A stretch of DNA of 51,544 nucleotides. Source: a virus. The stretch spans positions 1-51,544 of IMG/VR virus record IMGVR_UViG_3300036781_000812; one strand, given 5' to 3'. Shown here piece after piece: positions 845 to 51,544 of the stretch. The first letter of the stretch is position 1; each line of letters starts with the position of its first letter. The notes beneath the pieces are model-generated. The model was not told the DNA's origin, searched no databases, and worked only from the letters and a program-made list of their open reading frames with translations. The translations under genes were made by a program, and so were the position numbers.

Positions 845-2023
845 CTAGCCGGTGTGTCGGGCGCGCGCCATTCTCTCCATGGCCTCGCGCAGATGTGCGG
901 GATGGTGGTGGCCGTAGTTCTCGGTCAGGGTCTGAAGGTTCAGCCCGAAGTAGCCAGCGGCCGCCCATGGGTCCATGCCGGCTTGCATCGCCCAGGTGAT
1001 GGAGGTGTGGCGAAGGGTATGGGGCACGACCTTCTCGCCATGGAGCTTGCAGTCGGCGACCAGCAGCCTGAATGCCTTGTCCATGCGCTCCACGGGCTTG
1101 CCGTAGAACTCCACCGCAAACTTCTGGCCGTTCTTCTGCCAGCGGCGCATGTGCGCCAGCAGCGGGCCGGGCAGGGGGATTGGCGGCTGGCGCTTCTTGG
1201 TGGCGCGCACGCCGGCGCCGCGGCGGTGCCAGAGGCCGGCGTCGAGATCGATGTGGCCGCGGCCGAAAGCGCGCTCGAAGCTGGCGTTTAGAATGGCGGT
1301 TTTGCGGGTGCCGGTATAGGCGGCGATGAGGATCCAGCGCGCCAGGTGCTTGCGGCTTCCCCACTCGTCCTCCGCGCCGCTGCGGCCGTTTGACGAGCGG
1401 CGATGACGCCATGCGGCCCAAACGAGCTTTGCCACCTCATCGCGGGTCAGCCAGCGTTCCCGCGGCAGGGACTTTGGCGGTGTCCAGACCGGCACCGGCC
1501 GGTCGAGCAGCTGCTCGCGGTGCGCGTGGTTGATGGCCGCGCGCATCAGCTCGAGATCCATCTGCGCCGATCGGGTCGCGCCGACGAAGGTCACGTAGGC
1601 CTTGCAGGTGGCGGTACGGACGTCGGCGATCGTACCCGTCATCGTTGCGGCCGGCAGCTTCTGGTCGTGCATCGACTGCATGGCGGCTTCGGGATCGGTC
1701 CACCAGCTGATCAGCCGGCGCACGCGCGCCCCCGTCTCTTTCGGGCGGGCGTGCGCGGGGGCGATGTCGCGGGCGTAGAGCGCGATGATATCGGCGGTCA
1801 GGACCTGAGAGGGATCACCGTTCCGGATCGCGGGCTCGTACTTCTCCGCGAGGTAGCGGGCGAGGGCCTGCTCAGCGCTTCGACGGTCAGCAGGGCCGCA
1901 TCCCGTGCTACGCTTAGTCTTGCCGTCTCGGATGACCCAGACGGCCTGCTCGACGCCGGCGGCGCGCTCGCGCTCGGGCTGTAGCCAGAGGCGCGGGCCT
2001 TTGCCGATGGGACCTGTTGGCAT
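845..2023 (-). CDS. int: prophage tyrosine integrase
   Basis: This 392-residue tyrosine recombinase would integrate and excise the prophage. The N-terminal part resembles integrases of rhizobial prophages ('PRLWLQ...WVIRDG...STGCG'). A SAM-like core-binding domain follows, then the catalytic domain with Arg in 'TGTRKTAIL', Lys in 'TKKRQ', 'HTLRH' and the nucleophile Tyr in 'ENYGHH'. The usual second His/Trp position reads 'GYFGL', a mild departure. The start at 2023 is preceded by GGGAG. It is the last gene of the leftward operon, and its first 226 bp overlap the excisionase-like gene in another frame. No attachment core could be identified beside it. Confidence 0.93.
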   Translation of the reverse strand: MPTGPIGKGPRLWLQPERERAAGVEQAVWVIRDGKTKRSTGCGPADRRSAEQALARYLAEKYEPAIRNGDPSQVLTADIIALYARDIAPAHARPKETGARVRRLISWWTDPEAAMQSMHDQKLPAATMTGTIADVRTATCKAYVTFVGATRSAQMDLELMRAAINHAHREQLLDRPVPVWTPPKSLPRERWLTRDEVAKLVWAAWRHRRSSNGRSGAEDEWGSRKHLARWILIAAYTGTRKTAILNASFERAFGRGHIDLDAGLWHRRGAGVRATKKRQPPIPLPGPLLAHMRRWQKNGQKFAVEFYGKPVERMDKAFRLLVADCKLHGEKVVPHTLRHTSITWAMQAGMDPWAAAGYFGLNLQTLTENYGHHHPAHLREAMERMARARHTG

Positions 2024-3112: not shown

Positions 3113-3500
3113 GGAATTTATCGTTCTCCAGAACAGAGTCATGGGGATCGTCGTGGGCGGGGATGGCGTTGGCCGCACGGTCGGCATCGCGGTCGACGCG
3201 CTCGATTTCGGCAAGCAACAGCGCGGCGGCTTTGACCAAGTCGCCGCGTCGGGTGGTCGGCTTCCACCAATCAGGGGCCCACGGCCAGATCCCCTGTACA
3301 AAGGTCACGGGTCCGCTTTGGCTGGGGAGCCTGGCAGTATAGCGACGCTCGTAGTTCCCGAATGCATAGCAGGCCGCGGCCGCTGCGAGCTCGCCGTTGA
3401 CATGAGCGTCGTCGTGAGCATGGTCGAAGCCTTCGGCCTCGATCTGGCGCTCGCGCTCGCGCAGCACGTCCGCCACGGCGCGGATCGGGTGATTGTCCAT
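2940..3500 (-). CDS. hypothetical prophage protein, 186 residues
   Basis: The start at 3500 begins 'MDNHPIRAVADVLRERERQ', followed by 'EGFDHAHDDAHVNGELAAAAACYA' and 'WPWAPDWWKPTTRRGDLVKAAALLLAEIERVD'. This is a pattern I know from many alphaproteobacterial phages but have no function for. The acidic/His cluster (DHAHDDAH) might bind metal, which is a guess. The conserved part ends at about residue 110; the remaining ~75 residues are Pro/Arg-rich and overlap the opposing gene at 2816-3112, and may be read-through of little importance. It lies 8 bp downstream of 3509-3988 in the leftward operon under the repressor-controlled promoter at 4019-4047. Confidence 0.6.
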   Translation of the reverse strand: MDNHPIRAVADVLRERERQIEAEGFDHAHDDAHVNGELAAAAACYAFGNYERRYTARLPSQSGPVTFVQGIWPWAPDWWKPTTRRGDLVKAAALLLAEIERVDRDADRAANAIPAHDDPHDSVLENDKFLSPGARRSPSPPGTTEALSPSHEASAHPGELGRPALPLEVRVRRLERLHRDQLLWLR

Positions 3501-5070: not shown

Positions 5071-5775
5071 CTAAATTCCGTAAAGCTCTCCGTCTGTCAT
5101 GACCTTGTGTACCTTCAGGCCGGGCCGAATGACGAAATCGAGTGTGGCCTTCGGATTGAACTGCTCGGTCCTCACCAACTTGGTTGTGACGGCGATCAGG
5201 CGCTTGATGAAGCCGCGCGCTTCGCCGTTATTGTTATCGGGCTCCTGCACCACGACGTAGTCGCCATTGCGGGCCTTCCGGGCGGGATGGACGAACACCA
5301 GATCGCCTGGCTCGAACTTTGGCGACATCGATTCGCCCTCGACATAGAGCGCGTAAATCTCGCCGATGCCGATCAGGCCGAACGGGCGACGCACATAGTC
5401 CACCACGTCGGGGGACAGCTGGAAAGCGCCTTTGCCGAGTTCCGACCCAGCTACCGTGCCGAGCACCGGCACGTCTTTGGGTAGCTGACCGATTGCCGGA
5501 AACGGGACGTCCGCAAAGCGCACATTGCCGGGGCCGTTTGGTGGGGCAACGCCGGTATCTTCGGCGGCTGTGCCGGACGTCAGCAGCCATTGCTCCGTGA
5601 CGTCGAGGCCAAACGCCAATTTGGTCAGGGTATCGCCTCGAGGATTGTCACTTGTGCCGTTCAAGACGTTGCGAATCGTGCTCTCGGGCAGTCCGGATTT
5701 TAACCCCAGTCCGCGAATGGACAGCTTGAGTTCCTTACGACGAGCGTCGATGCGATCAGCCAGATTCTCGTTCAT
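5071..5775 (-). CDS. LexA-type phage repressor (XRE HTH + S24 peptidase)
   Basis: This 234-residue protein is the prophage CI-type repressor. Residues 5-65 form an XRE helix-turn-helix ('LSIRGLGLKSGLPESTIRNVLNG'). A linker contains a possible Ala109-Gly110 self-cleavage site. The C-terminal S24 domain has Ser149 in 'GESMSPKFEPGDLVFV' and Lys191 in 'RGFIKRL'. RecA-stimulated self-cleavage, and hence SOS induction, follows from the family. No Shine-Dalgarno precedes the ATG, and a TATATT (minus strand, 5787-5782) just upstream suggests a leaderless mRNA. An operator overlaps this start, which implies autoregulation. Confidence 0.92.
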   Translation of the reverse strand: MNENLADRIDARRKELKLSIRGLGLKSGLPESTIRNVLNGTSDNPRGDTLTKLAFGLDVTEQWLLTSGTAAEDTGVAPPNGPGNVRFADVPFPAIGQLPKDVPVLGTVAGSELGKGAFQLSPDVVDYVRRPFGLIGIGEIYALYVEGESMSPKFEPGDLVFVHPARKARNGDYVVVQEPDNNNGEARGFIKRLIAVTTKLVRTEQFNPKATLDFVIRPGLKVHKVMTDGELYGI

Positions 5776-14537: not shown

Positions 14538-15479
14538 ATGACGAAGACTTCTGTTGCCGAGCGACCCATCGTGGATTCGCTCTATTCGTTCGAGAAAACG
14601 CGCCCCGGCGCGCCGGCCTTTGATTTCGCCGCCGATGGCGCGTCGTTGATCATGGCCGGCGACGTTGCCCTGCTCGAGGGCGATGTGGCCTATGACTTGG
14701 CGGGAGGGCGGGTGCAGCTACCCGAACTGGTCGCCGGCCATGACTATGTCATTCGCCATGCCGACGGGTACCTCGAGGCTGTCGAGGCGACCGATGCCGC
14801 CCTCGCCGATGCGTCGACCGTTGGTGGCTTTCATTTCGCCCTTGGTGGCAATGCTGCCGGCCGGGCCGGTGGCGACACGGCGCCGGCGATCAACCCGGCG
14901 TCGATCTGGGACGTGTCGTTCCTGCCGGCGTGCCATGATCCGCGCGGCATGGCGTATGTGGCCGGCGTGCCGGGCAGCGAACATGTGGCGCCGTTCTGGG
15001 TCGATCTCTACCTGCTCAACGTCGACCACCTGGCGCGCGGCACCAGCGTCGCCGGTGCGGAGATTGCCGAAGGGCGCGAGCGCCGGCCGAAGCTGGCCGA
15101 TGGCAAGCAAGCGGTCAATCTCAATTATACAACCGCCGCTGCGATCATGGCGGCTCATGGCAAGGGGCTCCTGAGCCTCGCCGAATTCTGGGCCGCCGCC
15201 TATGGCGTGACAGAGAAAACCGCCACCGGCAGCAAGCCCGAACGGACCGCACTCGATATGCCGCGCACGTCGCGCTGCGGGATGATGCAGGCGGCGGGCA
15301 ATCTCTACGTCTGGGGCCATGACGGCGATCCGGACGTGCGGCGCGCGGCTATCTTCGGCGGCGGCTGGGTCGGTGGCGAGTTCGCCGGCTCCCGGTGCGC
15401 GTACGTCGATCTCTGGCCGGCCAGCTCGTACGGCTGGATCGGTGCGCGCGGCCGCAGTGACCACCTGCAGCTTGACTGA
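14538..15479 (+). CDS. DGR target protein 1 (C-type-lectin/FGE fold)
   Basis: This 313-residue protein is diversified by the retroelement. Residues 30-75 look like the small N-terminal module of Mtd-type DGR targets ('ALLEGDVAYDLAGG', 'LPELVAGHDYVIR'). Residues 90-313 form a formylglycine-generating-enzyme-like C-lectin fold: 'GGFHFALGGNA', 'CHDPRGMAYV', 'FWVDLYLLN', 'LLSLAEFWAAAYGVTE', 'MMQAAGNLYVWG'. The variable repeat VR1 encodes residues 267-308 (about 11 varied positions) and the frame ends just after the homology, as usual. It has no signal peptide. A Shine-Dalgarno-like GGAG lies 12 nt upstream. It should be a ligand-binding protein; whether it is virion-borne or intracellular is unknown, since it lies in the early region. 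Confidence 0.88.
   Translation: MTKTSVAERPIVDSLYSFEKTRPGAPAFDFAADGASLIMAGDVALLEGDVAYDLAGGRVQLPELVAGHDYVIRHADGYLEAVEATDAALADASTVGGFHFALGGNAAGRAGGDTAPAINPASIWDVSFLPACHDPRGMAYVAGVPGSEHVAPFWVDLYLLNVDHLARGTSVAGAEIAEGRERRPKLADGKQAVNLNYTTAAAIMAAHGKGLLSLAEFWAAAYGVTEKTATGSKPERTALDMPRTSRCGMMQAAGNLYVWGHDGDPDVRRAAIFGGGWVGGEFAGSRCAYVDLWPASSYGWIGARGRSDHLQLD
15336..15475 (+). repeat. DGR variable repeat VR1 with IMH
   Basis: Positions 15336-15461 align without gaps to TR 16906-17031. All 13 differences are at TR adenines (to G, T or C). The GC-rich 3' end (GGTGCGCGCGGCCGCAGTGAC) is identical to TR, and the next 14 bases (15462-15475) match VR2 but not TR, which is the expected form of the initiation-of-mutagenic-homology site. 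Confidence 0.95.
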
Positions 15480-15499
15480 GCTGGCGCGATAGCGCCGGC
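15480..15499 (+). promoter_or_regulatory. VR1 downstream hairpin with GATA tetraloop
   Basis: GCTGGCGC, loop GATA, GCGCCGGC: an 8-bp stem (one G-T pair) that starts 4 bases after VR1. Bordetella phage DGR targets carry a hairpin of this size with a GRNA loop just after VR that increases retrohoming. A T-run follows 13 nt later, so the hairpin could also take part in termination. Confidence 0.75.
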
Positions 15500-15540
15500 G
15501 TCTCCCCTTTTTTCATTTTCAAACCTGAGGACTTGAAACC

Positions 15541-16494
15541 ATGCAGACCGCAACGGCCGAAAAGGCCCCTGTCGGAGCAACGACCATCGCCAGCATCACC
15601 CGGGCGATCCGCGGGCCGGTGTTCGTGCCCACCGATCGGGGTGCGCTGGGCGTGCTCGCCGGCACGACTTTCCTGATCGATGGCGACAGCCATCTGTTCG
15701 ACTTCGCGACGCCGGTCATCCTGCCCGATCTGGTCGCTGGCACGGACTATGTCATTCGCCTCGTCGACAATGTGCTGCAGGCCAGTCCGGCTGAGAACAG
15801 CGTGCGCGACGGTAGCGTGTGGGGCGCCGATCTCGACGGGGTACTGGGTGGATTCCATTTTGCCCCCGGCGGCAATGCCACGGCCCGGGCCGGCGGCGAC
15901 GAATTGCCGGCGATCAACCCCTATTCGTGCTGGGATATCGGCTATCGGCCGGCTTGCGAGGACCCGCGCGGCATGGCGTGCATCGATGGCCGGTTCTGGT
16001 GCGACATCTATCTGCTGGGGTGCAACCCCTTCGTCGGCGGGAGCAGCCGCTTCGGCGTGGTGATCGCCGACGGCACCGACGTGCCGATGGATGAGACCGA
16101 CGAGCAGCCCTATGACAGCCTCGATCACCCGACCGCCGTGAAGATCTTTGGCATGCTCGGCAAGCAGTTGCTCGGGCCCGAGGAATTCTTCGCCGCCACC
16201 TATGGCGTGACCGAGGGCACGTCCATCGGCGAAGACCCGAAGATGACGAAGCTCGATGTCGCGCGCACCAGCAAATGGGGTGTGATGCAGGCGACCGGCA
16301 ACATGTCGACCTGGGGCAATGACGGCGACCCGGACGGCCCGCGCAACGCCTGGAGATTCGGCGGCAGCTGGGGCGTTGGCGGGTTCGCCGGCTCCCGGTT
16401 CGCGCGCGTCGATTACTGGCCGGGCTACTCGGCCGGCTGGGTCGGTGCGCGCGGCCGCAGTGACCACCTGCAGCTTGAATCGCCGGCGCGATAG
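15541..16494 (+). CDS. DGR target protein 2 (C-type-lectin/FGE fold)
   Basis: This 317-residue paralogue of target 1 lies 61 bp downstream of it. It shares the same layout: the N-terminal module ('TTFLIDGDSHLFDFATPVIL', 'LPDLVAGTDYVIRLVD'), then 'GGFHFAPGGNATARAGGDEL', 'CEDPRGMACIDGRFWCDIYLLG', 'LLGPEEFFAATYGVTEGTS', 'WGVMQATGNMSTWGNDGD'. VR2 encodes residues 273-308. Overall the two targets are similar but clearly diverged outside the VR, so the duplication is old and both genes have been kept. The start ATG at 15541 follows a GAGGACT ribosome site. Frame and reading up to the stop are intact, so it should be functional. Confidence 0.88.
   Translation: MQTATAEKAPVGATTIASITRAIRGPVFVPTDRGALGVLAGTTFLIDGDSHLFDFATPVILPDLVAGTDYVIRLVDNVLQASPAENSVRDGSVWGADLDGVLGGFHFAPGGNATARAGGDELPAINPYSCWDIGYRPACEDPRGMACIDGRFWCDIYLLGCNPFVGGSSRFGVVIADGTDVPMDETDEQPYDSLDHPTAVKIFGMLGKQLLGPEEFFAATYGVTEGTSIGEDPKMTKLDVARTSKWGVMQATGNMSTWGNDGDPDGPRNAWRFGGSWGVGGFAGSRFARVDYWPGYSAGWVGARGRSDHLQLESPAR
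16357..16478 (+). repeat. DGR variable repeat VR2 with IMH
   Basis: Positions 16357-16464 align without gaps to TR 16924-17031. All 14 differences are at TR adenines (14 of the 20 adenines in the aligned part). The 5' homology begins 18 bp later than in VR1. Bases 16465-16478 are shared with VR1 but not with TR, giving the IMH/IMH* difference. Confidence 0.95.
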
Positions 16495-16504
16495 CGGCCG
16501 GCGA
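16480..16504 (+). promoter_or_regulatory. VR2 downstream hairpin with GATA tetraloop
   Basis: A 10-bp stem with one bulged G (TCGCCGGCGC, loop GATA, then GCG-G-CCGGCGA) starts one base after the VR2 homology. The loop is the same as at VR1 although the flanking stem bases differ, which argues for selection on the structure. It overlaps the target 2 stop codon. Confidence 0.75.
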
Positions 16505-16516
16505 ACGACATTCCAG

Positions 16517-16894
16517 ATGATCAAGGCGAACGCCATCGTCCGCGATGAACGGTCCTCTTACGAGGGGATGGCGATCGTCGAGAAATACGAGGACTTCTTG
16601 AACTACGTCTACCCCAAGGTGCAAAACTGCCCGCGCAAGCACGGCGTCATTCGCGATGCCGTGCTCTCTGCTTTGCTCGAGCCGATCGCCGCCTTCTATG
16701 CCGCCGGCAAATCCAGCCAGGTGTCGCGCCTCTATCAGCTCGATGCCCAGCTGGCGACGCTGCGGTTCTGGTTGCGCTTCCTCTCCAATGACGCGCGAGC
16801 CGTCCTTACGACCCATCAGGCGGGCGAAGCGCTCCGCCGTCTCAATGAGGTCGGCAAGATGCTTGGCGCGTGGATCGGGAAGCTCAAGGGGTGA
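16517..16894 (+). CDS. avd: DGR accessory variability determinant (bAvd type)
   Basis: This 125-residue, all-helical protein matches the four-helix-bundle Avd/23S-IVP fold: 'YEDFLNYVYPKVQNCPRKHG', 'RDAVLSALLEPIAAFYAAGK', 'LYQLDAQLATLRFWLRFL', 'QAGEALRRLNEVGKMLGAWI'. Avd forms a pentamer that binds the reverse transcriptase and TR RNA and is required for cDNA synthesis. The start at ATG 16517 is preferred; longer readings extend into VR2 in another frame. It sits between VR2 and TR, the standard order, and the stop is 11 bp before TR. Confidence 0.88.
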   Translation: MIKANAIVRDERSSYEGMAIVEKYEDFLNYVYPKVQNCPRKHGVIRDAVLSALLEPIAAFYAAGKSSQVSRLYQLDAQLATLRFWLRFLSNDARAVLTTHQAGEALRRLNEVGKMLGAWIGKLKG

Positions 16895-16905
16895 ACGGGG
16901 AAATG

Positions 16906-17031
16906 ATGCGGCGCGCGGCTATCTTCGGCGGCAACTGGGACGATGGCGAGTTCGCCGGCTCCCGGTACGCGAACGTCGATAACTGGCCGGACAACTCGAA
17001 CGACTGGATCGGTGCGCGCGGCCGCAGTGAC
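16906..17031 (+). repeat. DGR template repeat (TR)
   Basis: This 126-bp non-coding template has 22 adenines, concentrated in AAC, GAC, GAT and TAC triplets when read in the VR frame. AAY codons give the broadest amino-acid range without stops when adenines are randomised. It lies between avd and the reverse transcriptase on the same strand as both VRs, and is followed by GACCAATATCTG where the VRs have CACCTGCAG. Confidence 0.96.
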
Positions 17032-17316
17032 GACCAATATCTGTTTGAAGGTATTTCCGCTCGGCGCCGGCCACGGCCTCGCCGGCTTCATACATCGCTC
17101 TTGCCCGTCTTCCTCTGGCTCAGGCCAACCGGTCGGCGGCGTGGAGTTGGTGGTCAGCCCGATCATCCTGCTTCGGCAAACACATTTCACGATCCGGTAG
17201 AACGGGGCGTAGCGCGGCATTCCTGGGGGACGCTCTGGCACTCGCCAACCGCTTTCCCCGTGCCGTGTCGAGACCCGCGGCCGGTATTTTTTCACCCATA
17301 TTGTCGCGGGCGTCAC
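17032..17316 (+). ncRNA. TR-RT spacer of the DGR RNA
   Basis: These 285 bp between TR and the reverse transcriptase contain no convincing gene. In Bordetella phage the corresponding stretch of the TR transcript binds the RT-Avd complex and primes cDNA synthesis, so this is expected to be a functional part of the DGR RNA together with the end of avd and TR. No fold was computed. Confidence 0.6.
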
Positions 17317-18309
17317 GTGGCGAAACATTATCGCAATCTCATCGGCCGCATTACGGCCGACAGCAACATGCGCGAGGCGCTGCGCCTCACCGCGCGTGGC
17401 AAACGGCTCACGCCGGGCTATCTCGACTTCAAGGAGTTCGAGCCGCTGAACCTCGAAGAGCTGGCGCGGGACATGCGCACCGGCGCCTACGTACCGGGTG
17501 AGCCGCACCAGTTCCAGATTTTCGACCCGAAGCTGCGCACGATATCGGCGCTGCCGTTTCGCGATCGGGTGGCGCAGCAGGCGCTGTGCCTCGTCATCGG
17601 CCCGCCGCTCGACCGCACGCTGCTGCCGCACTGCTATGCCTGTCGCACCGGCAAGGGCACCCATGCCGGCGTGCGCGACGTGCAGGCCACCATCCGCCGA
17701 CTCGAACATCTCGGCCAGCCGGTGTATTTCCTCAAGACGGATTTTTCGCGCTACTTCGCCTCGATCGAGCGGCCGGTGCTATGGCGGCTGATCGAAAAGA
17801 AGATCACCTGCCGCGCGACGCTGCAGCTGCTCGAAACCATGGTGCCGCGCGAGGGGATCGGGTTGCCGATCGGTTCGCTGACCTCGCAGATCCTCGCCAA
17901 TCTTTATACCGGCATGACGCTCGACCGGCTGCTGCAGCAGGGCCTCGGTGAGACCGACTGGTTTCGGTACATGGACGATCTCGTGGTGCTCAGCACCTCG
18001 AACGAGCATTTGCGCGGCCTGAAACAGCAGATTGAACACTATTCGGCCGACGAGCTGGGGCTGCGGTTTTCGAAATGGTCGATCGCGCCGGCGAGCCGCG
18101 GCATCAATTTCCTCGGCTATCGGATCTGGGCCAGCCACAAGCTGCTGCGTCGCGACAGTGTGGTGCGGGCCAAGCGCAAGATCGGCGCCTATCGCGCCGC
18201 CGGCGACTTCGACCGGCTCGAGCGGTTCCTTGGCGCATGGCTGGGCCATGCCGGACATGCGGACACCCGAAATCTCGTGCGTGCGCTGGGGGTGGGCGAT
18301 GGTGGCTGA
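17317..18309 (+). CDS. DGR reverse transcriptase
   Basis: This 330-residue retron/DGR-clade reverse transcriptase starts at GTG 17317; the open frame runs further upstream only because it crosses TR without a stop. Motifs: 'FRDRVAQQALCLVIGPPLD', metal-binding Asp142 in 'FLKTDFSRYFASI', the DGR-type motif 'IGLPIGSLTSQILANLY' (Ser190-Gln191), and catalytic Tyr218-Met-Asp-Asp221 in 'WFRYMDDLVVLS', followed by 'LRFSKWSIAPASRGINFLGY', the thumb/motif E region. There is no extra domain. It copies TR RNA with adenine-directed errors. All catalytic residues are present. Confidence 0.95.
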   Translation: MAKHYRNLIGRITADSNMREALRLTARGKRLTPGYLDFKEFEPLNLEELARDMRTGAYVPGEPHQFQIFDPKLRTISALPFRDRVAQQALCLVIGPPLDRTLLPHCYACRTGKGTHAGVRDVQATIRRLEHLGQPVYFLKTDFSRYFASIERPVLWRLIEKKITCRATLQLLETMVPREGIGLPIGSLTSQILANLYTGMTLDRLLQQGLGETDWFRYMDDLVVLSTSNEHLRGLKQQIEHYSADELGLRFSKWSIAPASRGINFLGYRIWASHKLLRRDSVVRAKRKIGAYRAAGDFDRLERFLGAWLGHAGHADTRNLVRALGVGDGG

Positions 18310-49084: not shown

Positions 49085-49161
49085 TGGTCGGAGTAGAGTG
49101 ATTCGAACACTCGACCCCCTGCTCCCGAAGCAGGTGCGCTACCAGGCTGCGCTATACTCCG
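49085..49161 (-). tRNA. tRNA-Pro (anticodon CGG)
   Basis: On the minus strand a 77-nt cloverleaf is visible: acceptor CGGAGTA/TACTCCG, D arm GCGC...GCGC, anticodon stem CCTGC/GCAGG with loop TTCGGGA (anticodon CGG), T arm GAGTG-TTCGAAT-CACTC, then A-CCA encoded in the gene. It is intact. Its 3' end faces the prophage, but no second copy of the 3' end was found near the left integrase. Confidence 0.95.
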
Positions 49162-49296
49162 ATAAGGTCCCGACGCGGACTTGGTCCGGCGGATTGGCCG
49201 GGGTTATAGCGGCGAGTTCCCGGCGTTTCAAGCGCTCATCCGCGCCATTCCGGTTCCGTTGCGCGTCCCCCCCGGAACGTGTAGGAACCGCGCCGT

Positions 49297-49371
<75 letters not shown>

Positions 49372-49492: not shown

Positions 49493-51544
49493 ATGGCTCT
49501 CGGCCCAAATCTGCTTCGTCGCGGCGCGGTTTACCATTGGCGCAGACGCATCCCCAGCCAGCTTGTGCCTTTCATAAAGGCAACGCACCTTCGGATCAGC
49601 CTCAACACAAAGGATTCGAAAGCGGCCCGGTATCTCGGCGCCCAACTCGATGCGATCGCGATGGACATTTTTGGCGCGCGGACCACACAAGGCATGAGCA
49701 AGGAGCAGTTGGCGCACCTGTTCAGGTCTGCACATCTCCAGCACCGAAAGAAGCTGGATTTGCTGGCTGATATCGAGCGTGGTCATCCCACAATGGAGCG
49801 GTCCCAACTACTCGCTCTCGAACTCGCCCGCGGCGAGGCCTATCGTCTGCTGTCCGAGCGCGGCGCCAACGCGCAGATCGATGCTGCATATTTGCAGCGC
49901 CTCGACGACAGGGGCTACGACGCCCGAGGCGTTGCGCGGATCCTCGAGGAACTCGAAGCTCTTCGGGATCCTGCTGGCATCCATTTTTCGATGTCGAAGC
50001 TGAGGGGGCTTATCGAGGCAGCCGGCGCACCGGCCAGCTCGATCAATCTGGCACAGGCGCTGCCGGTCTACTTGCGCGCCATGGCCGAAGCGCTGCTCAC
50101 CGCGCCGCAGCGATACGGTGCCCAACCAACCGATGCGGTCGACTTCGCGGCTTTGCTTGCGAACACCGAGCAGGAGACGGTTGTTGAGAAGCCTGCTGTT
50201 GCCGTCAGGCGCGAAACCGCGCTCGAACCAGCGGGTGTGGCACCGGTGCCAACCGTCTCGTCATCTGCGTCTGCGTCTGCGGCTTCGGCGCCCGCGCCCG
50301 ACCCGAGTACCGACGGGCGCGTTGAAACGATCGCCCGCAAGCTCATCGACAGGAAGGTCAACGCCAAGTCCAACGCAGCGCTAAGGGCCGAGCCCGGGAC
50401 TCAGCACGAGGCACGCGCCAGGGCCAAGGGCTGGGATGACAAGGCCGTGCGGCAGGCCGAAGGCATTTTCGACCTGTTCGGTCGCTTCCTCCGCGAAGAG
50501 CACGGCTTCGACGATCTCGCTTTGCTGCGCCAGCGACACCTTGCCGGTTTCGAGGAGTTCCTGCGGCAGCTCAACAGCAATTTCGGCAAGAGCCCGAAGG
50601 ACAAGAGCCGAACGATTGCAGATCTGCGCGCCGTGGCCGCCGAGGTCGGTCCAAAAGTCGGGACCCTGCTGCCGGGGACCCTCAATCGCCACCTGACCTA
50701 CCTGGGTCAGCTCATCCGTCACGCCAAAGCGGCGGGTGTTGTCATGGCCCCCGATCTGTCTACCGAAGTCCTGCGCGCGGAGCAGCCCGATCGCAGCCGC
50801 AACCTTCGCGCGGTTCCGGCTGGGCAGGCGGTGGCAGCCCTCTTTCATGGCCCCGCCTTTACCGGCTGCGCGGCGTGGGATCGGCCCAGTGAGCCCGGGG
50901 ACTATGTCTACCACCGGGCGCTCTATTTCGTGTCGCTGCTCAGCGTCTATAGCGGGGGGCGCCGGGAGGAGTATTGCGGTTTGTCGGTCGACGATGTCGT
51001 GGACGACGCCCCCGATCCTTACGTCATGATCCGCTTCAATGACATCCGTCGGCTGAAGAACGGCCAGTCCATCCGCTCGCTCGCTCTCCATCCGGAGCTC
51101 ATCCGTCTGGGGTTCATCCCCTATGTCCGCGCCATGCGCGAGCTGGGCTATCATCGCCTCTTTGAGGACCTCTACTCACCGACAAGCAGGAGCCCGATGG
51201 GTGATCGATACTACGACGAGTTGCTCCCTGCTTTGCGCGGCGCAGGAGTGACCCCGCACCAACTTCGCCATTTCTTCAACGATGCCCTCAAGCAGCAGGA
51301 GGTGGCCAGAGAGTTTCGTGCCGATCTGCTTGGCCACGTGGGCGAGGGTGAGACCGACGAACGCTACTGCAATCCGACGCATATAAGACTTCAGCTGAAG
51401 CAGCTTGCCAAACTCCCAATTGTCTCTGCGCATCTAGAGGCGAGACCAATACTGCTTCTGCCATGGATTGCCGAGCGCCGCGTCGCCCCCTGGTCGAGGG
51501 CGGCTGCAGCCGAGGCGACAGGAATACATCAAAAGCCAAGCTAA
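49493..51544 (+). CDS. large tyrosine recombinase beside tRNA-Gln
   Basis: This 683-residue site-specific recombinase is unrelated to the left integrase. Residues 1-60 resemble the DUF6538-type N-terminus ('LLRRGAVYHWRRRIPSQLVP'). A long variable region contains a Ser/Ala/Pro linker near 260-280. The SAM-like core-binding domain covers roughly 310-430, and the catalytic domain has Arg490 in 'SGGRREEYCGL', Lys in 'RRLKNGQSIRSL', His589-x-x-Arg592 in 'PHQLRHFF', 'LLGHVGEGETDERY' and Tyr625. It is complete, ending at the last base of the window. Its position 121 bp after tRNA-Gln suggests it serves an integrative element lying to the right. Confidence 0.9.
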   Translation: MALGPNLLRRGAVYHWRRRIPSQLVPFIKATHLRISLNTKDSKAARYLGAQLDAIAMDIFGARTTQGMSKEQLAHLFRSAHLQHRKKLDLLADIERGHPTMERSQLLALELARGEAYRLLSERGANAQIDAAYLQRLDDRGYDARGVARILEELEALRDPAGIHFSMSKLRGLIEAAGAPASSINLAQALPVYLRAMAEALLTAPQRYGAQPTDAVDFAALLANTEQETVVEKPAVAVRRETALEPAGVAPVPTVSSSASASAASAPAPDPSTDGRVETIARKLIDRKVNAKSNAALRAEPGTQHEARARAKGWDDKAVRQAEGIFDLFGRFLREEHGFDDLALLRQRHLAGFEEFLRQLNSNFGKSPKDKSRTIADLRAVAAEVGPKVGTLLPGTLNRHLTYLGQLIRHAKAAGVVMAPDLSTEVLRAEQPDRSRNLRAVPAGQAVAALFHGPAFTGCAAWDRPSEPGDYVYHRALYFVSLLSVYSGGRREEYCGLSVDDVVDDAPDPYVMIRFNDIRRLKNGQSIRSLALHPELIRLGFIPYVRAMRELGYHRLFEDLYSPTSRSPMGDRYYDELLPALRGAGVTPHQLRHFFNDALKQQEVAREFRADLLGHVGEGETDERYCNPTHIRLQLKQLAKLPIVSAHLEARPILLLPWIAERRVAPWSRAAAAEATGIHQKPS

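Follow-up and report, generated by a model that had tools for sequence, protein, structure and literature searches.

A BPP-1-like retroelement cassette with two Mtd-like target genes and an open reading frame through its template repeat

Introduction

The diversity-generating retroelement (DGR) of Bordetella phage BPP-1 is arranged as mtd-avd-TR-brt and has a single target, mtd, which comes after a putative tail-fibre gene and encodes the receptor-binding protein Mtd (major tropism determinant). Its VR is followed by a hairpin with a GRNA loop; such loops, on stems of 7-10 bp, are conserved in phage DGRs and required in BPP-1 (PMC3240598). The spacer RNA between the template repeat (TR) and the reverse transcriptase (RT) gene recruits RT-Avd and primes the cDNA (PMC12875486). 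At its avd stop, BPP-1 offers the TR no start codon, and the VR frame of the TR closes 29 nt ahead of brt.

DGRs with two targets are already known as a kind, and those with multiple targets form between a seventh and a quarter of all known DGRs. Multi-target elements make up about one seventh in PMC3521204, DGRs with several VRs 28.6% in PMC6642488, and two-target DGRs about 13% as quoted in PMC10743442, according to which phage data are limited. In these elements (PMC3521204; PMC6642488; phage cases in PMC10743442), one TR serves several duplicated targets, as in the phage described here. In the nd4/nd12 phage cases, the paired targets differ in topology (a tentaclin and another), whereas both targets described here are Mtd-like and stand in tandem.

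Another layout concerns the TR itself. Structural group 3 of DiGReF comprises DGRs whose TR overlaps the annotated RT ORF (PMC3521204); there it is reported as a cassette layout, with the TR inside an ORF running into the RT, an arrangement shared by the phage described here. Vibrio phage VP58.5 has the group 3 layout, and its ORF begins with an ATG overlapping the avd stop. The overlap of TR and RT ORF has been catalogued since 2012; what is worth following up is a translatable template. The searchable literature, subscription papers lying outside it, yielded no account of translation of a DGR template, only the group 3 layout statement in PMC3521204. Preservation of the frame, avoidance of stops and the link of a start codon to the avd stop were tested in the present analysis.

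The phage and its DGR cassette

The virus record IMGVR_UViG_3300036781_000812 is an IMG/VR entry of 51,544 bp, analysed over its whole length (hereafter the window). It encodes an integrase (845-2023, minus strand), a CI-like repressor, terminase, portal, head protease, major head protein, tape measure, a lambda J-like tip protein, an endolysin and a spanin; from this gene content, the phage looks like a temperate lambda-like siphophage. The DGR cassette is flanked by an AAA ATPase gene and a gene of replication-initiator type; its order is mtd1-mtd2-avd-TR-spacer-RT, with every part on the plus strand:

14538..15479, +: mtd1, first target, Mtd-like receptor-binding (tail) protein, 313 aa, VR at the 3' end (PHROG 11262, Pfam mtd_2nd)
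15336..15461, +: VR1, 13/126 differences from TR, every mismatch at a TR adenine
15480..15499, +: hairpin 3' of VR1, 8-bp stem with one G-T pair and a GATA loop (GRNA type), a DGR target-site element (by folding)
15541..16494, +: mtd2, second target, Mtd-like, 317 aa, VR at the 3' end (Pfam, PHROG, PDB, Foldseek)
16357..16464, +: VR2, 14/108 differences from TR, every mismatch at a TR adenine
16480..16504, +: hairpin 3' of VR2, GATA loop, one bulged base (-13.5 kcal/mol, z -3.7)
16517..16894, +: avd, accessory variability determinant, 125 aa (Pfam bAvd 6e-29; PDB 4dwl E 1e-29)
16891..16908, +: possible starts of the TR frame, namely GTG in the GTGA at 16891-16894 (overlapping the avd stop), ATG at 16903 and ATG at 16906
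16906..17031, +: TR, template repeat (TR/VR alignment), whose VR codon frame reads MRRAAIFGGNWDDGEFAGSRYANVDNWPDNSNDWIGARGRSD
17032..17316, +: spacer (Sp) RNA between TR and RT, 285 nt, TR frame open for all 95 codons
17149-17284, +: conserved spacer core with covarying structure, alignable with the BPP-1 spacer
17317..18309, +: RT, DGR reverse transcriptase of 330 aa that starts with GTG and shares the TR reading frame

The RT matches PDB 8ub7 (the BPP-1 bRT complex, E 2e-101), Pfam RVT_1 and PHROG 1423 and is intact, with both YMDD and the DGR-type IGSLTSQ motif; the avd ORF is intact as well. These motif and family matches confirm the RT with intact YMDD and the avd of the preliminary description, whose coordinates, those of the TR included, are correct. 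Its ORF list omits the starts that overlap the avd stop, as well as the open frame linking TR and RT. The spacer contains conserved RNA blocks alignable with BPP-1 and covarying helices (18 of 33 predicted pairs). With BPP-1, the window shares gene order, an Mtd-type target, bAvd, adenine-only changes and an RT of 50% identity.

The features of a BPP-1-type DGR found in the window are the TR/VR adenine pattern, a DGR-class RT with an intact active site, Avd, targets of C-type-lectin fold with a C-terminal VR, the IMH with GRNA-loop hairpins, and a structured spacer RNA. The cassette is very probably a complete BPP-1-type DGR with two targets and one template in a temperate lambda-like phage, a confidence that applies to this best explanation as a whole, and it appears to be a working one.

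The targets (14538-16494) lie upstream of the replication-initiator-like and terminase genes and far from the tail genes (30-43 kb), unlike the position of mtd in BPP-1. Near the right end, a tRNA-Pro gene (minus) and a tRNA-Gln gene (plus) at 49085-49371 are followed by a second integrase-like ORF of 683 aa (49493-51544). The region may belong to the host or to an adjacent element, and att repeats were not recognised. Matches in a defence-gene scan of window proteins of uncertain function, the right-end integrase ORF included, were to RT and methyltransferase models only, and Rfam at gathering thresholds gave two tRNAs in the window and no DGR RNA family. Close phage records were none besides BPP-1-type DGRs, with RT identity of at most 50%, and an RT-based scan of genome contigs returned distant relatives only. 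Among 398 genomes of a single phylum, seven RTs at 35-40% identity were found besides the known one; these seven were left out of later analyses.

Target genes and hairpins

Both targets are homologs of the BPP-1 Mtd, which makes more specific the C-lectin fold ascribed to them earlier. The first matches the PHROG 11262 tail protein (E 2e-66) and, at cut-off, Pfam mtd_2nd. The second matches Pfam mtd_2nd (4e-10), PHROG 11262 (1e-73) and, by sequence, PDB Mtd entries 1yu0-1yu4 (E ~1e-43); its model, with a mean pLDDT of 78 and low confidence in the VR part, matches Mtd in Foldseek at ~1e-24 with a TM of 0.68. About the first 65 residues of BPP-1 Mtd have no match in the window Mtd. Because the match begins near residue 65, the N-terminal beta-prism is missing or replaced.

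Both hairpins fold, that of VR2 imperfectly, with one bulge. GRNA-loop hairpins occur within 70 nt of 89 of 108 VRs of the family, compared with 1 in shuffles and 0/72 downstream of TRs.

Of the 67 related loci in which 3 kb or more of sequence precedes the RT, 32 carry two Mtd-type targets with VRs, a lower bound, and 33 carry one. Upstream of the VR, the paralogs of 35 two-target loci share 64% identity; within the VR, identity is 35% at A positions and 100% at non-A positions, the latter partly by construction of the search.

Adenine-specific differences at two VRs

The TR/VR comparison was recomputed on the raw sequence, ungapped. Against TR 16906-17031, with 22 adenines, VR1 has 13 differences in 126 positions, and against TR 16924-17031, with 20 adenines, VR2 has 14 in 108; every one is at a TR adenine (hypergeometric p 2.9e-12 and 2.8e-13, respectively), with substitutions to G, T and C. 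The earlier count of 27 differences, all at TR adenines, is reproduced. Since the next-best ungapped TR match in the window reaches just 59/126, there are exactly two VRs, and no further one was found.

Over the shared 108 bases with their 20 adenines, nine are altered in both VRs, three in VR1 only and five in VR2 only. Most of the adenines altered in both have different outcomes in VR1 and VR2, so the two VRs were mutated independently of each other. Beyond position 17031, the copies differ at non-A positions (GACCACC in both VRs, GACGACC in TR), which is the expected IMH/IMH* boundary.

An ordinary gene conversion among VR1, VR2 and TR, in a cassette that is now a relic, could also make the three copies alike, as all of them fall inside 1.7 kb and their similarity would suffice for recombination. 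Conversion would not, however, confine the differences to the adenines of one copy, and identity between mtd1 and mtd2 of the window is only about 61% immediately 5' of the VR against 100% at VR non-A positions. A relic is at odds with the intact RT, avd, spacer and hairpins.

The 5' edge of VR2 is 18 nt shorter than that of VR1. In both the window phage (16339-16356) and its relative L004 (5055-5066), the VR of the second target begins later than that of the first, and the 5' end of the TR matches the first target only, as if the TR descended from or tracked mtd1.

Rewriting of both targets in related phages

L004, the nearest relative found (RT 86% identical), carries the same mtd pair. In a tree of the targets without their VR part, the mtd1 genes of the window and L004 group together (support 0.95), as do the two mtd2 genes (1.0). 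Because each target joins its L004 counterpart, the paralogs are older than the split between these phages. Their TRs differ at seven non-A positions, and at 7/7 each of the four VRs agrees with the TR of its own phage; L004 VR1 has one non-A change, T to C. Agreement of this kind between VRs and their own TR, in paralogs older than the phages, is to be expected only if both targets were rewritten by cDNA of their own TR after the divergence.

A second pair, L073 and L074, differs by about 7% outside TR and VRs. Their TRs are identical (0/123 different), and their VRs differ at 0/98 and 0/99 non-A positions and at 10/24 and 18/24 A positions, which shows that in related phages the VRs turn over while the TR stays constant. 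Such turnover tells further against a relic or conversion. Homing is not constant, since L058 and L059 have diverged at 12 sites elsewhere and have identical VRs. For the window itself, the comparison shows past homing into both VRs; recent turnover is seen in its relatives only.

The targets of another phage, L005, are identical past the VR through the hairpin (3326-3386 and 5176-5236). Retrohoming would not copy beyond the VR through the hairpin, so this stretch suggests recent gene conversion or duplication of target-site elements and is a point in favour of conversion. With all of these observations together, conversion and decay are a very improbable account of the window cassette. The reading as a complete DGR serving two targets holds, on adenine-only differences at both VRs, GRNA-type hairpins and lineage-specific sharing of non-A bases, and so does that of past adenine-specific retrohoming at two loci from one template, both VRs following their own TR.

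An open frame through the template into the RT gene

The VR codon frame of the window TR remains open from the avd stop through the TR, the 285-nt spacer and the RT as far as the RT stop. Of 72 loci, 64 keep the TR frame free of stops up to the RT start; an in-frame start codon overlaps the avd stop in 56, and most others have one a few bases further. Clustering at 85% RT identity, with five outgroup clusters dropped, left 34 clusters, the window included. The TR frame is open in 32 of these against 14.1 expected from dinucleotide shuffles (p 2e-11, which overstates independence, the clusters still being related). Read in the TR frame, the spacers have 2 stops in 2377 codons, whereas their two remaining sense frames have 38/2352 and 53/2358.

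The RT is in phase with the TR in 29 of 34 clusters, where 39% would be expected from independent segments (p 4e-8, relatedness ignored). Among the five out-of-phase clusters, the TR frame ends in an ATGA on the RT start in three and just past it in one. Counting openness of the RT frame instead was rejected: where the phases differ, it is mostly the TR frame that stays open. Spacer segment lengths between conserved blocks span all classes modulo 3, and changes in two segments compensate. None of the 34 clusters places the invariant UAG of the spacer RNA in the TR frame.

Openness could be an accident of high G+C and of the TR copying coding sequence, the template not being translated. Spacer G+C in the clade is about 62-75%, at which open frames are common; substitutions in the spacer show no codon-position bias (338/322/331) and the peptide no conservation, and BPP-1 manages without an open frame. 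The scarcity of stops in one frame only, the excess of open clusters, the compensating lengths and preferred phase, and the avoidance of the invariant UAG all speak against chance, as does the open TR frame of distant records (RT identity ~33-40%) with G+C down to 42%; an accident is therefore unlikely. Since substitutions favour no codon position, what is conserved seems to be openness of the frame, i.e., passage of ribosomes, rather than a peptide. We consider it probable, with moderate confidence, that the template RNA is translated, with ribosomes restarting at the avd stop, crossing TR and spacer, and reaching the RT in frame or at an overlapping start.

Alternatively, the RT would truly begin at the avd stop, with TR and spacer encoding a functional N-terminal domain. 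RT records in several phages and plasmids are annotated in this way, and VP58.5 has no in-frame ATG, GTG or TTG ahead of the RT domain other than the ATG at the avd stop, so its RT would carry the translated TR unless an unusual start is used. The clade of the window, unlike VP58.5, also keeps a separate RT start codon, in 34 of 34 clusters (ATG 29, GTG 3, TTG 2). This conservation, the clusters whose TR frame ends on or just past the RT start, and the lack of amino-acid-level constraint in the spacer make an N-terminal domain doubtful in the clade.

DGRs outside the clade

Fifteen other DGRs from phage and plasmid records, several with 42-53% G+C at the locus, were compared. Where a start codon is present at the avd stop, the path into the RT is open (or open to within 3 nt) in seven of eight; where it is absent, in one of seven (Fisher p 0.01). 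Several, like BPP-1, have neither the start codon nor the open path. The open frame from avd stop to RT, at 16891-17316 in the window, is also present in L099, L100, L103, L104, L106, L109 and L110. Open TR-spacer frames occur in the window clade and in the VP58.5-type lineage and are often annotated as the RT N-terminus or a hypothetical protein; in Aeromonas phage phiWae15, the TR/spacer stretch is annotated as a separate hypothetical protein between avd and RT. An Ideonella plasmid (L102, 3388-6787) carries two adjoining avd-RT pairs in tandem, in a prophage-like region.

Proposed mechanism and implications

By analogy with BPP-1, spacer priming, the RT-Avd complex, cDNA integration and the place of Mtd at the tail-fibre tip would apply here too. 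The RT-Avd complex would bind the structured spacer RNA and copy the adjacent TR RNA to cDNA, with misincorporation opposite TR adenines during the synthesis. The cDNA would then replace the VR of either tandem Mtd-like gene, both of which carry a 3' IMH and a hairpin as marks; one template would in this way diversify two paralogous adhesins. Less certain than these steps, ribosomes may begin again at the avd stop or close to it, translating TR and spacer before they either enter the RT in frame, as in the window, or restart at the RT start codon. RT output would thereby be coupled to translation of an RNA that is also the template. The simplest benefit would be that the RT is translated and the mRNA protected despite ~0.4 kb of template RNA ahead of it. 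Translation and cDNA synthesis might also compete for the one RNA, leading to self-limitation of the mutator, which is distinctly less probable than translation of the template itself.

The window holds a clean two-target DGR, and comparisons involving L004 and the pair L073/L074 are evidence of continued rewriting of two receptor-binding paralogs from a single template. If the template is translated, the DGR RNA would not be simply noncoding, and its spacer would have to fold for RT-Avd and yet let ribosomes pass. The limiting by a phage of its own mutator would then become directly testable, with relevance for engineered DGRs that express TR and RT separately. If it holds, competition between RT translation and cDNA synthesis for one RNA could give a built-in control of the mutation rate.
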